Source: Cellulomonas sp. KRMCY2 (GTDB taxonomy: Bacteria; Actinomycetota; Actinomycetes; Actinomycetales; Cellulomonadaceae). From it: a DNA stretch of 64,000 nucleotides. The notes below the pieces were generated by a model. It ran no database searches. It had not been told where the DNA came from and saw only the letters and a program-made list of their open reading frames with translations. The position numbers and the translations under genes are program-made. Shown here piece by piece: positions 42,060 to 55,151 of this stretch (position 1 is the stretch's first letter; every line of letters starts with the position of its first letter). The stretch covers positions 2,976,001 to 3,040,000 of the forward strand of contig NZ_JAGF01000001.1 in NCBI RefSeq assembly GCF_000526515.1, read 5' to 3'.

Positions 42060-43313
42060 TCAGGCTGAAGGGTCGAGGCAGGCGGCGATCCGCCGTCCGG
42101 CCTCGACCACCAGCGGGCGGGGCATCGCGAGGTTGAACCGGACGAAGCCCCGCCCGGCCCGACCGCAGGCCGCGCCGTCGGTCAGCGCCACCCCGGTGCG
42201 TTCGCCGATCCATCGCGCGAGGTGGTCGTGCGGCGCGTCGGGCGACGCCGCCAGTGCCGCCCGCAGGTCGAGCCAGGCCAGGTAGGTGCCCTCCGGCGGG
42301 ACGTGACCGATCTGTGGTGCCCGCTCGGCCAGGACGTCGGCCAGCGCGGCACGGTTGCCGTCGAGGTGCTCGACGAGCGCGCCGAGCCAGGGCCGGCCGT
42401 CGCGGTACGCCGCTGTGTTGGCGACCACGCCGAGCGTCGAGGCGCCATGCGTCGCGAGCATGTCGAACGACGCCCATCTCGCCTCGTCCGCGTCGTTGCT
42501 CAGCAGGATCTGCGCGCACTTGAGCCCGGGGATGTTCCACGCCTTCGACGCTGAGGTCGCGGTCACGGTGTGGGCGGCGGCAGCTGGTGAGATCGAGGCG
42601 TAGGGGATGTGCCGCGCGCCCGGGTAGACCAGCGGCGCGTGGATCTCGTCGGAGAAGACCCGCGCACCGTGCCGGTCGACGACCTCGGCCAGCGCGGTGA
42701 GCTCGCTGCGCGGGTAGACCCGACCGGTCGGGTTGTGCGGGTTCGTGAGGAGGACGAGGTGCCCGCCGGCACGGATCGCATCGGCCAGGGCGTCCAGGTC
42801 GAGAGTCGTCCGCCGGCCGTCCGGTACCAGCGGCACCTCGATGACCTCGCGGCCCCACTCCTGCGGAGCGGTGACGAACGGCATGTAGGCCGGTGTGGGC
42901 ACGATCACGGGCGAACCCGGTCGGGAGAAGTGCTCGATCGTGATGCGCAACGCCTCGAGCACGTCGGCGACCGGCTTGACCCACCGTGGTGGCACGTCCC
43001 ACCCGTACCGCTCGCTGTGCCATCGCGCGCAGGCGTCGGCCAGCTCGGCGCGCAGGGCCGGGGGGAGGTAGCCGAACGCGCCGGCCTCGGTCGCGGCGTG
43101 CAGCGCAGCGGTGACGGCCGGCGCCGTGCCGAAGTCCGACTCGGCCACCCACGCGGCGATCTCGGTCGGGAAGGCCGTCCACTTCAGGCTGCCCCGCCGA
43201 CGCAGCGCACCGGCGTCGAGCCGGTCGAGGTGATCGAGCAGCGCGAGCGGGTCGAGCGGCGCCCGTCGGTCGAACCCGTCCGGTACCTGGTCCAGCTCGG
43301 CGGATCGACTCAT
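42060..43313 (-). CDS. MalY/PatB-type PLP aminotransferase (C-S lyase)
   Basis: Fold-type I PLP enzyme of the MalY/PatB group, usually cystathionine beta-lyases. Landmarks are the family opening GSLKWTAFPTEIAAWVAESDF, the PNP-like TNPHNPTGRVY, DEIHAPLVYPG, and the PLP lysine in SASKAWNIPGLKCA; the terminal Arg motif is GRGFVRFNLAMP. Length 417 aa is normal. It converges with hsp20, only 21 bases apart. Substrate (cystathionine, cysteine or another beta-elimination substrate) is inferred. Confidence 0.87.
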   Translation of the reverse strand: MSRSAELDQVPDGFDRRAPLDPLALLDHLDRLDAGALRRRGSLKWTAFPTEIAAWVAESDFGTAPAVTAALHAATEAGAFGYLPPALRAELADACARWHSERYGWDVPPRWVKPVADVLEALRITIEHFSRPGSPVIVPTPAYMPFVTAPQEWGREVIEVPLVPDGRRTTLDLDALADAIRAGGHLVLLTNPHNPTGRVYPRSELTALAEVVDRHGARVFSDEIHAPLVYPGARHIPYASISPAAAAHTVTATSASKAWNIPGLKCAQILLSNDADEARWASFDMLATHGASTLGVVANTAAYRDGRPWLGALVEHLDGNRAALADVLAERAPQIGHVPPEGTYLAWLDLRAALAASPDAPHDHLARWIGERTGVALTDGAACGRAGRGFVRFNLAMPRPLVVEAGRRIAACLDPSA

Positions 43314-43433
43314 CCCCGCAACCTAGCCCGGCGGACGTGGTGTGCTCGAACCTCTCCGATGGGTCGAGGGCACCACAATCGACCCCGAATCACGCGCGAA
43401 CGGGTGAAAAACCCGGGAAACGCCGTCCTGGCT

Positions 43434-43462
43434 TTGCGTGGATGTCCGGATTGTGTGACCCT
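43434..43462 (+). promoter_or_regulatory. Candidate promoter of the riboswitch-bldC transcript
   Basis: TTGCGT (43434-43439), 17 bases, GACCCT (43457-43462). The expected start of transcription falls at the 5' edge of the riboswitch. Confidence 0.4.
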
Positions 43463-43464
43463 GT

Positions 43465-43545
43465 CCGTGTCAGCGACAAGGGCAAACCCACCGCGAGGTG
43501 GGGACGCAGAGCCAACGGGACCCCATGGGTCGGCCGGGCACACCG
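43465..43545 (+). ncRNA. Cyclic-di-GMP-I (GEMM) riboswitch upstream of bldC
   Basis: Matches the GEMM-I aptamer. The conserved GGGCAAACC is at 43480-43488; P2 is CCCACC/GGTGGG (43487-43492 and 43497-43502) capped by a GCGA tetraloop; then GGGACGCAGAGCC (43501-43513), one change from the consensus GGGACGCAAAGCC. P3 forms as GCC/GGC (43511-43513 with 43537-43539), CGG/CCG and GACCC/GGGTC. P1 pairs GTGT (43467-43470) with ACAC (43540-43543). The bldC Shine-Dalgarno AGGAG begins at 43552, seven bases past P1, so control of translation is the simplest model. The sign of the response cannot be read. Confidence 0.85.
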
Positions 43546-43564
43546 AACGACAGGAGCGCACATC

Positions 43565-43795
43565 ATGTCCTCACAGACCGCGCAGTCCGCAAACCGCACC
43601 GCCGCCCCCGGCGCTCTTCTCACTCCTTCCGAGGTCGCGAGCATGTTCCGCGTCGACCCGAAGACCGTGACGCGGTGGGCCAAGGCCGGCAAGCTCTCGG
43701 CCATCCGGACGCTCGGTGGCCACCGCCGCTACAGCGAGGCCGAGGTCCGCGGCCTGCTGACCGGCGTCCCGCAGCCCCGGGCCAGCGAGGACTGA
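43565..43795 (+). CDS. bldC: BldC-type MerR-like developmental regulator
   Basis: A 76-residue DNA-binding protein nearly identical in pattern to Streptomyces BldC, which binds head-to-tail on direct repeats and times development. The HTH (LLTPSEVASMFRVDPKTVTR, WAKAGKLSAIRTLGGHRRY) covers residues 17-60. No effector domain is present. AGGAG lies eight bases before ATG 43565. It is monocistronic, with a strong terminator after it and a c-di-GMP riboswitch before it. In a non-sporulating relative the role is unknown. Confidence 0.93.
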   Translation: MSSQTAQSANRTAAPGALLTPSEVASMFRVDPKTVTRWAKAGKLSAIRTLGGHRRYSEAEVRGLLTGVPQPRASED

Positions 43796-43801
43796 CAGGC
43801 T

Positions 43802-43843
43802 TGACGAGGGCCCCACCCGACTCGACGGGTGGGGCCCTCGTCA
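43802..43843 (+). terminator. Strong terminator after bldC
   Basis: A perfect 18-base stem (43802-43819 with 43826-43843) rich in GGGCCCCACCCG, with six-base loop ACTCGA, starting six bases past the bldC stop. No T-run. Confidence 0.85.
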
Positions 43844-43963
43844 TGTCCGCGCAACCGCTACGTTCGGGATGCGTCCGACGACGGAGCCGCTGCGCGCTCG
43901 CGCAGGTGCGTCGGCGCACGGACTCGCACAGGTACGCCGGCGCACGGAAGGGACGCACATCTG

Positions 43964-45088
43964 ATGCCTCGTTGCCCATCGTGTGGCGCGCATGCCGAGC
44001 CGGACGCCCGCTCCTGCGCGTCGTGCGGGTCCCGTCTGCCCGAACCGTCGGAGCCGCGCGTGGCTCCGCCTTCGCCGCTGCCGCCGGGAGCCACGCCCCG
44101 CAGCCGGGGACTGCGTCCCGCGATCGTCGTCCCGGTGCTCGTGCTCGGGGTCGCGGTGGTGGCCGCGATCGGGTTCTCGATCGCCACGGCGAACGTCCAG
44201 ACGGCCAAGCAGGACCGGTCCGACCCGTCGACCGGACCCGGGACGACGCAGGGGGCCGAGCAGCGCGGCCCCGGAGTGACGTTGCGGCCGGTCGCCGGGG
44301 ACGGGACGCAGGTCACGGGCGAGACACTCGCCCAGGCGGCGGCGGTGGTCCGACAGCGGCTGGGCGTCGCGGGCGTGACCGACGCGCAGGTCGTGGAGAC
44401 GAGCGACGGCACGATCGTCGTGAGTCTGCCGAAGGAGCCCGACCAGGCGACGATCGACATGGTGAGCAGACCGGTGCAGCTCGCCTTCCGGCCGGTGCTG
44501 GCACTGGGGTCCCCTGAGCCGGCCGAGCCAGGAGCCGAAACCGTCGAGGTGGAGCCGAAGGCGGGCCCGGACTCGCCCAGTGACGCCGCGTACTACGTCA
44601 CGGGAAGCGTCCTCGCGTCGTACGACGCGCTGGACTGCACGGACCCCGCGAACCGCCTGCCCGCCGGCGGTACGGACAGCGAGGCGCTCGTCTCCTGCGA
44701 CGGCGACGGCTCGGCGAAGTACGTCCTCGGTCCCGTGGAGATCCCTGGTTCGGCGATCGAGAGCGCGAGCGCGGGGCTGCGGGAGGGGCCGAACGGTGAC
44801 CAGACCAACCAGTGGGTGGTGACGCTCCAGCTCGGCCCAGCAGGCACGGACGCCTTCCGCGACGCAACGACCCGGCTGCAGGGACTCGTCCCACCGCAGA
44901 ACCAGATCGCGATGGTTCTTGACGGCGTGGTCGTCACCGCGCCGTCGGTCGGCACCGTCATCGCGGACGGACGGGTGGAGATGTCCGGGTCCTTCACGCG
45001 GGACAGCGCCGAGGCGCTCGCCGGCCAGATGGGCCTCGCCGCGCACGCCGTGACCTTCGAGGTGGATGACGTGACCGGCTCACGCTGA
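43964..45088 (+). CDS. Zinc-ribbon membrane protein with SecD P1-head-like domain
   Basis: N-terminal zinc ribbon (CPSCGAHAEPDARSCASCG, residues 4-22), one membrane segment (about residues 53-75), then an extracytoplasmic region like the SecD/SecDF P1 head (GETLAQAAAVVRQRLGVAGV; AIVLDG-like AMVLDGVVVTAPSV; VEMSGSFTRDSAEALAGQM). The 12-segment SecD/SecF membrane body is absent, so it is a stand-alone head-domain protein and not SecD itself. ATG at 43964 is required for the first Cys pair. Function unknown; possibly an accessory to export or folding. Confidence 0.8.
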   Translation: MPRCPSCGAHAEPDARSCASCGSRLPEPSEPRVAPPSPLPPGATPRSRGLRPAIVVPVLVLGVAVVAAIGFSIATANVQTAKQDRSDPSTGPGTTQGAEQRGPGVTLRPVAGDGTQVTGETLAQAAAVVRQRLGVAGVTDAQVVETSDGTIVVSLPKEPDQATIDMVSRPVQLAFRPVLALGSPEPAEPGAETVEVEPKAGPDSPSDAAYYVTGSVLASYDALDCTDPANRLPAGGTDSEALVSCDGDGSAKYVLGPVEIPGSAIESASAGLREGPNGDQTNQWVVTLQLGPAGTDAFRDATTRLQGLVPPQNQIAMVLDGVVVTAPSVGTVIADGRVEMSGSFTRDSAEALAGQMGLAAHAVTFEVDDVTGSR

Positions 45089-55018: not shown

Positions 55019-55151
55019 CCCGTTCGACCGCCGGTCCGCCCGGGAAGGTTTCGACCTCACCAGGCGTTCTGGCAGACTGTCCCCTTGGTCCCCGGTTCAC
55101 GTGTGCGAACCCGCCCACGACCCGGCGACTTCCAGATGAGGAGTAGCCCCA

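Follow-up and report, generated by a model that had tools for sequence, protein, structure and literature searches.

The window, by which we mean the whole stretch of 64,000 nt from Cellulomonas sp. KRMCY2 that was analyzed here (positions 2,976,001 to 3,040,000 of contig NZ_JAGF01000001.1), contains a gene of the BldC family, here called bldC2, directly downstream of a c-di-GMP-I aptamer. The features of the locus are the following (positions are those of the window):

43434-43462, plus strand: promoter-like element TTGCGT-N17-GACCCT, seen in many but not all leaders of relatives
43468-43552, plus strand: P1-type closing pairs, UGUC (43468-43471) with GACA (43549-43552), adjoining the Shine-Dalgarno sequence; GUC/GAC paired in 97.4% of cells
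43471-43547, plus strand: c-di-GMP-I (GEMM-I) riboswitch aptamer, from the RF01051 match and covariation in bldC leaders
43552-43556, plus strand: Shine-Dalgarno sequence AGGAG, 4 nt 3′ of the aptamer, read from the sequence and present at a comparable position in most of 53 relatives
43565-43795, plus strand: bldC2, a bldC paralog encoding a BldC/MerR-like DNA-binding protein of 76 amino acids, from NF033787, HTH_17, MerR, PDB 6ama, and a tree
43802-43843, no strand assigned: perfect 18-bp inverted repeat (43802-43819/43826-43843) with a 6-nt loop, a possible transcript end, read from the sequence

The bldC2 gene starts with the ATG at 43565. Its product matched the BldC family model NF033787 with 102.1 bits (curated cut-off, 77) and also HTH_17, MerR, and, with an E-value of 3.9e-28, PDB entry 6AMA, which together with 6AMK we take to be Streptomyces BldC. 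Among named BldC proteins, those of A. lenta (79%) and Actinotalea sp. K2 (80%) matched best by E-value, and the divergent PatB-like neighbor of the window locus is kept in both species. A BldC study (PMC5859096) names K26, T27, T29, R30, W31, and H46-R47-R48 among the DNA-contact residues and K33 as a phosphate contact. K26, T27, T29, R30, W31, and H46-R47-R48 were kept in 52 or 53 of the 53 aptamer-linked BldC proteins described below, and K33 is kept in BldC2, whereas 28 of the 53 have N, Q, or T at this position. BldC2 shares with Streptomyces BldC the DNA-binding core and nearly all contact residues named there. Elsewhere in the window, 43964-45085 encodes a protein that combines a zinc ribbon with a SecDF P1-head domain and is not a full SecD, and an L31-Actinobacteria ribosomal protein leader (RF03158, 37.4 bits) lies at 55086-55129.

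A search with Infernal and the Rfam model RF01051 placed the aptamer at 43471-43547 on the plus strand with 39.4 bits (gathering score, 35; E-value for the window, 3.3e-4). The match spans the full model (1-87), which confirms the complete GEMM-I aptamer before a bldC-family gene that the initial annotation had proposed. That annotation let the aptamer end seven bases before the Shine-Dalgarno sequence, a distance that results if the aptamer is taken to end at the final C of ACC (43544); from the RF01051 end at 43547 the distance is 4 nt. According to PMC4744006, the ligand contacts of the Vibrio cholerae aptamer Vc2 include G20, A47, and C92. In a by-eye reading of the alignment these correspond to G43481, A43508, and C43543, all kept in the window; class and contact residues are shared with the V. 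cholerae Vc1/Vc2 aptamers. P2 reads CCCACC/GGTGGG with a GCGA loop. The window aptamer thus resembles its class in the full model match, the ligand-contact residues, and the P2/P3 architecture, and differs in that its target is a BldC-family transcription factor and that it abuts the Shine-Dalgarno sequence with hardly any separate expression platform. The ATG follows 94 nt after the aptamer start and 17 nt after its end, compared with a 244-nt leader given for Vc1 in PMC4744006.

In the sequence tests made, the window aptamer behaved as an ordinary RF01051 member, with two departures: position 48 is G (43509), and the A-U pair closing P3 is changed to A-A. It also has the lowest score among the 143 RF01051 matches listed for 40 genomes and is the weakest of the nine matches in its own genome. 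Because of the low score, the change at position 48, and the lost P3 closing pair, this copy could be weakened, and one may suppose that it is a relic that has lost tight binding and left bldC2 free of c-di-GMP control while the other aptamers of the genome work. We consider this unlikely, since the score lies above the gathering score, G20, A47, and C92 are kept, and the start spacing and the Shine-Dalgarno sequence are intact. Moreover, both departures have parallels: AGA at positions 47-49 is common to the window and two other bldC leaders, and the P3 closing pair is absent in 12 of 52 distinct bldC leaders.

Across these 52 leaders the named structure forms in 93.3% of cells. Nine aptamer pairs and 60 cells were changed on both sides, compared with shuffle means of 4.5 and 15.2, and none of 500 shuffles, which ignore the relatedness of the leaders, gave values as high; slid-structure controls had two to four pairs changed on both sides. 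Pair types numbered 21, a value that 21 of the 500 shuffles also attained. RNAalifold recovered P2 and most of P3 from the bldC leaders, the closing GUC/GAC pairs being absent from its prediction. The bldC leader RNA therefore looks selected as a structure, with P2 and P3 covarying in relatives. The GUC/GAC closing pairs, which in the window stop one base before the GG of the Shine-Dalgarno sequence, are paired in 97.4% of cells of the 52 distinct leaders. Being nearly invariant, they count as conserved but give covariation hardly anything to test; AUC/GAU in locus L148 is the one case changed on both sides.

The limits of the transcript are less sharply drawn than initially annotated. A scan for the sigma-70 consensus found no site, and the consensus of the promoter annotated at 43434 is weak. 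Among the 41 of 53 leaders that were inspected, many carry TTGC...TGTCC at the promoter place, and it is missing, for example, in L134, L141, L144, and L147; in several other genera TTGCRC-N17-CATAGT lies upstream with TGTCC in the spacer, an arrangement that would start the transcript at the aptamer. Because the TTGC...TGTCC element recurs in relatives, a promoter near 43434 is plausible as a candidate despite the empty scan. At the other end, the 18-bp terminator annotated at 43802 is indeed a perfect inverted repeat, but the hairpin at 43802-43843 lacks the T-run of an intrinsic terminator, and a terminator scan of 43200-44000 found no terminator-like site. What stays of the self-contained RNA-controlled unit is thus a hairpin without a T-run and a promoter of weak consensus. 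Transcription attenuation was rejected because of the empty terminator scan.

To define how often the pairing recurs, a family sample was used in which RF01051 was found in 96 of 200 genomes and 7 of 25 genera. Forty of the 96 were compared, 19 of the same genus and 21 of the 77 others, and the coordinates of their 143 RF01051 matches were related to those of 89 BldC matches over the cut-off. A same-strand aptamer lay just upstream of 52 of the 89 BldC genes, in 39 of the 40 genomes (the exception being G022); as these genomes were picked for RF01051, the linkage rate over the whole family is lower. When a diverged gene (L148) is counted, 53 of the 143 aptamers are BldC-linked. With start codons chosen by hand, the start lies 12 to 22 nt 3′ of the aptamer in 50 of the 53 linked units, and the other three have an alternative ATG at 19 to 20 nt. 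G20 is kept in 51 of the 53 bldC leaders, the exceptions being L134 (A) and L128 (C). In all 113 leaders that were read, position 20 is A in three (L134, L217, L246) and C in L128; A20-type variants may prefer cAMP-GMP. Of the 104 family genomes without RF01051, 20 were compared: G023 has three BldC genes over the cut-off, each of the other 19 a single one. Every BldC over the cut-off is aptamer-linked in six genomes of Actinotalea (G050, G079, G089, G125, G130, G143), several of which are fragmented assemblies. An aptamer-less BldC on G053:C151 begins 98 nt from the end of its contig, which may thus be too short to include the leader. Two aptamer-bldC units, L142 and L149, stand in tandem 436 bp apart (G079:C31:119607-120301).

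The conservation across Micrococcales for which the initial annotation had asked was found within the Cellulomonadaceae. In an order sample RF01051 was present in 41 of 396 genomes (39 over the gathering score), and other families contribute 24 of these, two of them with RF01051 only below the gathering score; none of the 17 BldC genes over the cut-off in these 24 genomes was aptamer-linked. In a phylum sample with RF01051 in 155 of 396 genomes, 80 of the 155 were compared, and none of 13 BldC genes over the cut-off (in 12 of the 80 genomes) was linked to an aptamer among the best RF01051 matches listed, a restriction by which a link could be missed.

The target named bldC in the initial annotation belongs to the BldC family but is not the Streptomyces-type gene. 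A tree of 53 linked, 20 of 37 unlinked, and 17 named BldC proteins (76 columns, midpoint root) placed the 20 unlinked and 15 of the named proteins, 35 rows in all, on one side of a branch with support 97/89 and the aptamer-linked proteins on the other. The named rows on the aptamer-less side include Streptomyces, Micromonospora, and Cellulomonas, and the two remaining named rows duplicate the genes L161 and L141. Three changes of the aptamer label were counted on the tree, because these two duplicates were labelled as named, and none of 500 shuffles gave a count as low. With only 76 columns the inner forks are weak, and long rows, L148 among them, are placed with little certainty. The 35-row side also holds the aptamer-less BldC of the same genome, the canonical one at 1028694-1028837 of the contig, which has no RF01051 match; bldC2 falls outside and in this tree does not group with Streptomyces BldC. 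Judged by these sequence comparisons, the window gene is a BldC paralog, and the ortholog of Streptomyces bldC lies elsewhere in the genome. Besides its position across the supported branch, bldC2 differs from Streptomyces BldC by a longer N-terminal tail and the riboswitch leader.

The same aptamer-bldC pairing in relatives suggests that c-di-GMP sets the levels of these regulators through RNA. As there is no terminator-like site and only 17 nt separate aptamer and ATG, control would most likely act on translation, and we consider it likely that the leader is a translational c-di-GMP-I riboswitch setting the level of BldC2. The transcript would start a few bases 5′ of the aptamer, so close to it that the leader would be hardly more than aptamer and Shine-Dalgarno sequence. 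c-di-GMP, supplied by the many predicted diguanylate cyclases of the cell, would bind at G43481, A43508, and C43543, as in the family, and bound ligand would lock the aptamer and the closing GUC/GAC pairs that end at AGGAG. The BldC2 so produced may act on BldC-type sites, nearly all named contact residues being kept.

One conceivable alternative is a switch in which CCTGTC (43461-43466) pairs with GACAGG (43549-43554) in one state and sequesters the Shine-Dalgarno sequence. The 6-bp complement is present in the window, but CCTGTC is kept in L151, L152, and L165 although the Shine-Dalgarno region there is GACGAAGG, and it sits at the predicted -10 region. We rejected this switch as highly improbable. 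A search across the bldC leaders found no conserved anti-Shine-Dalgarno element or other alternative pairing, which speaks against the translational riboswitch itself and leaves its expression platform putative.

The sign of the predicted translational switch can be argued from the closing pairs. They touch the Shine-Dalgarno sequence and in some leaders are able to reach into it, which favors an off switch, in which ligand blocks ribosome entry and high c-di-GMP lowers BldC2. In a loose register search, at least six closing pairs could be formed by extension into the Shine-Dalgarno sequence in 11 of 52 bldC leaders; the mean extension was weakly above permutation (12 of 300 permutations as high), and in 60 non-bldC leaders there was no effect (142 of 300). 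L128, 1 of 113 leaders, was left out because the anchor pattern failed. Given a working switch, we regard the off sign as slightly likelier than the opposite one, in which ligand would free the Shine-Dalgarno sequence, a sign to which we would give somewhat less than an even chance. For this on switch the free RNA would pair the GG of the Shine-Dalgarno sequence with the aptamer 3′ strand near C92-C93, and c-di-GMP, by taking C92, would yield more BldC2. It is favored by the predicted pairing with the C92 region in free RNA: in 53 leaders the Shine-Dalgarno sequence spends a mean of 0.62 of 5 nt on the aptamer 3′ strand, the most of any aptamer part. More of the predicted pairing (1.13 of 5 nt) goes downstream, however, 59 non-bldC leaders behave alike (0.46 on the aptamer 3′ strand, 1.23 downstream), and the window reads CA where CU would lengthen the helix. 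Since both pairing partners are fixed for other reasons, covariation cannot test this pairing. As an account of the locus, with the need for a working switch included, we rate the on switch as possible rather than probable. Free-state folding gave a mean unpaired probability of the Shine-Dalgarno sequence of 0.53 or 0.47, depending on the chosen 5′ end, with scattered partners, and was not decisive for the sign.

Three reports on Streptomyces (PMC4151990, PMC4255298, PMC6428758) place bldC among the targets of BldD, which is active with c-di-GMP and has about 147 to 170 target units or genes. The last of these reports also describes that BldC activates the cyclase gene cdgE and that c-di-GMP (through BldD) and BldC both brake development. 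Because BldD already carries c-di-GMP to bldC in Streptomyces, a link between the two is not new, and the contrast with Streptomyces drawn in the initial annotation is softer than stated. In both systems c-di-GMP would act on a bldC gene; what differs is the means, a protein repressor at bldC as described for Streptomyces and here a paralog with an RNA aptamer in its leader. In the CC-licensed literature we found no paper joining a c-di-GMP riboswitch, or GEMM-I, to BldC or to Cellulomonas, and papers with both bldC and riboswitch concern other matters; the wiring, which the annotation had not known to be described, was thus not met there. New relative to that literature are the repeated attachment of the aptamer to BldC paralogs, the RNA route, and the riboswitch-wired paralogs. 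If true, coupling c-di-GMP to BldC paralogs by RNA would mean that a wiring similar to that of Streptomyces had been reached independently, and it would place BldC proteins in a c-di-GMP lifestyle network. To our knowledge, Cellulomonadaceae do not sporulate.

In the genome (4.5 Mb, one contig), nine matches to RF01051 exceed the cut-off, and there are 31 GGDEF matches. The genes 3′ of the nine aptamers were assigned by eye from the DNA. Three encode BldC proteins (the window, L004 = L147, and L007 = L153), and a fourth (L005 = L148, G000:C1:1537257-1537517) encodes a diverged BldC with 49.2 bits that has lost K26 and the HRR motif and is probably decayed under a well-preserved aptamer of 57.3 bits. 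The L008 aptamer precedes a GGDEF protein (GGDEF match at 3709281-3709739), that of L006 a secreted protein resembling the DUF4214 protein of L194, the latter assigned by Pfam, and those of L001, L002, and L003 small or secreted proteins. The riboswitch-bldC unit would thus have multiplied in the family, to three copies in this genome plus the one with the diverged gene. More broadly, and tentatively, an ancestral riboswitch-bldC unit of the Cellulomonadaceae may have founded an RNA-wired family of BldC paralogs with up to four members per genome, including one diverged, that replaced canonical BldC in some Actinotalea. Through near-identical aptamer-Shine-Dalgarno leaders, c-di-GMP might then adjust the amounts of several BldC-type DNA-binding proteins simultaneously, and along with them those of a cyclase and of an unnamed family of ~50-residue proteins. 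The riboswitch-linked genes would also offer candidate c-di-GMP targets in actinobacteria that lend themselves to testing.

Outside this genome, 60 of 85 non-bldC loci were read. In 21 of the 60, a protein of 47 to 63 residues, of the loose pattern PPQVLARWAA..A....LPTQ, lies directly 3′ of the aptamer (L192, L193, L197, L199, L200, L204, L206, L209, L210, L211, L221-L223, L231, L233, L234, L236-L238, L246, L248). Six proteins of this type, namely four of the 21, the one of the window's own genome, and that of L242, gave no Pfam or NCBIfam match. The gene in the own genome (L252:8828-9001, minus strand) lies within 3 to 7 kb of CheR and MCP genes. EAL-domain proteins stand under RF01051 aptamers in L224 (by Pfam) and L215 (by resemblance), and in G102 (L240:55-1005, minus strand) a sigma-70 factor containing regions 2, 3, and 4 comes after an aptamer and a small protein.
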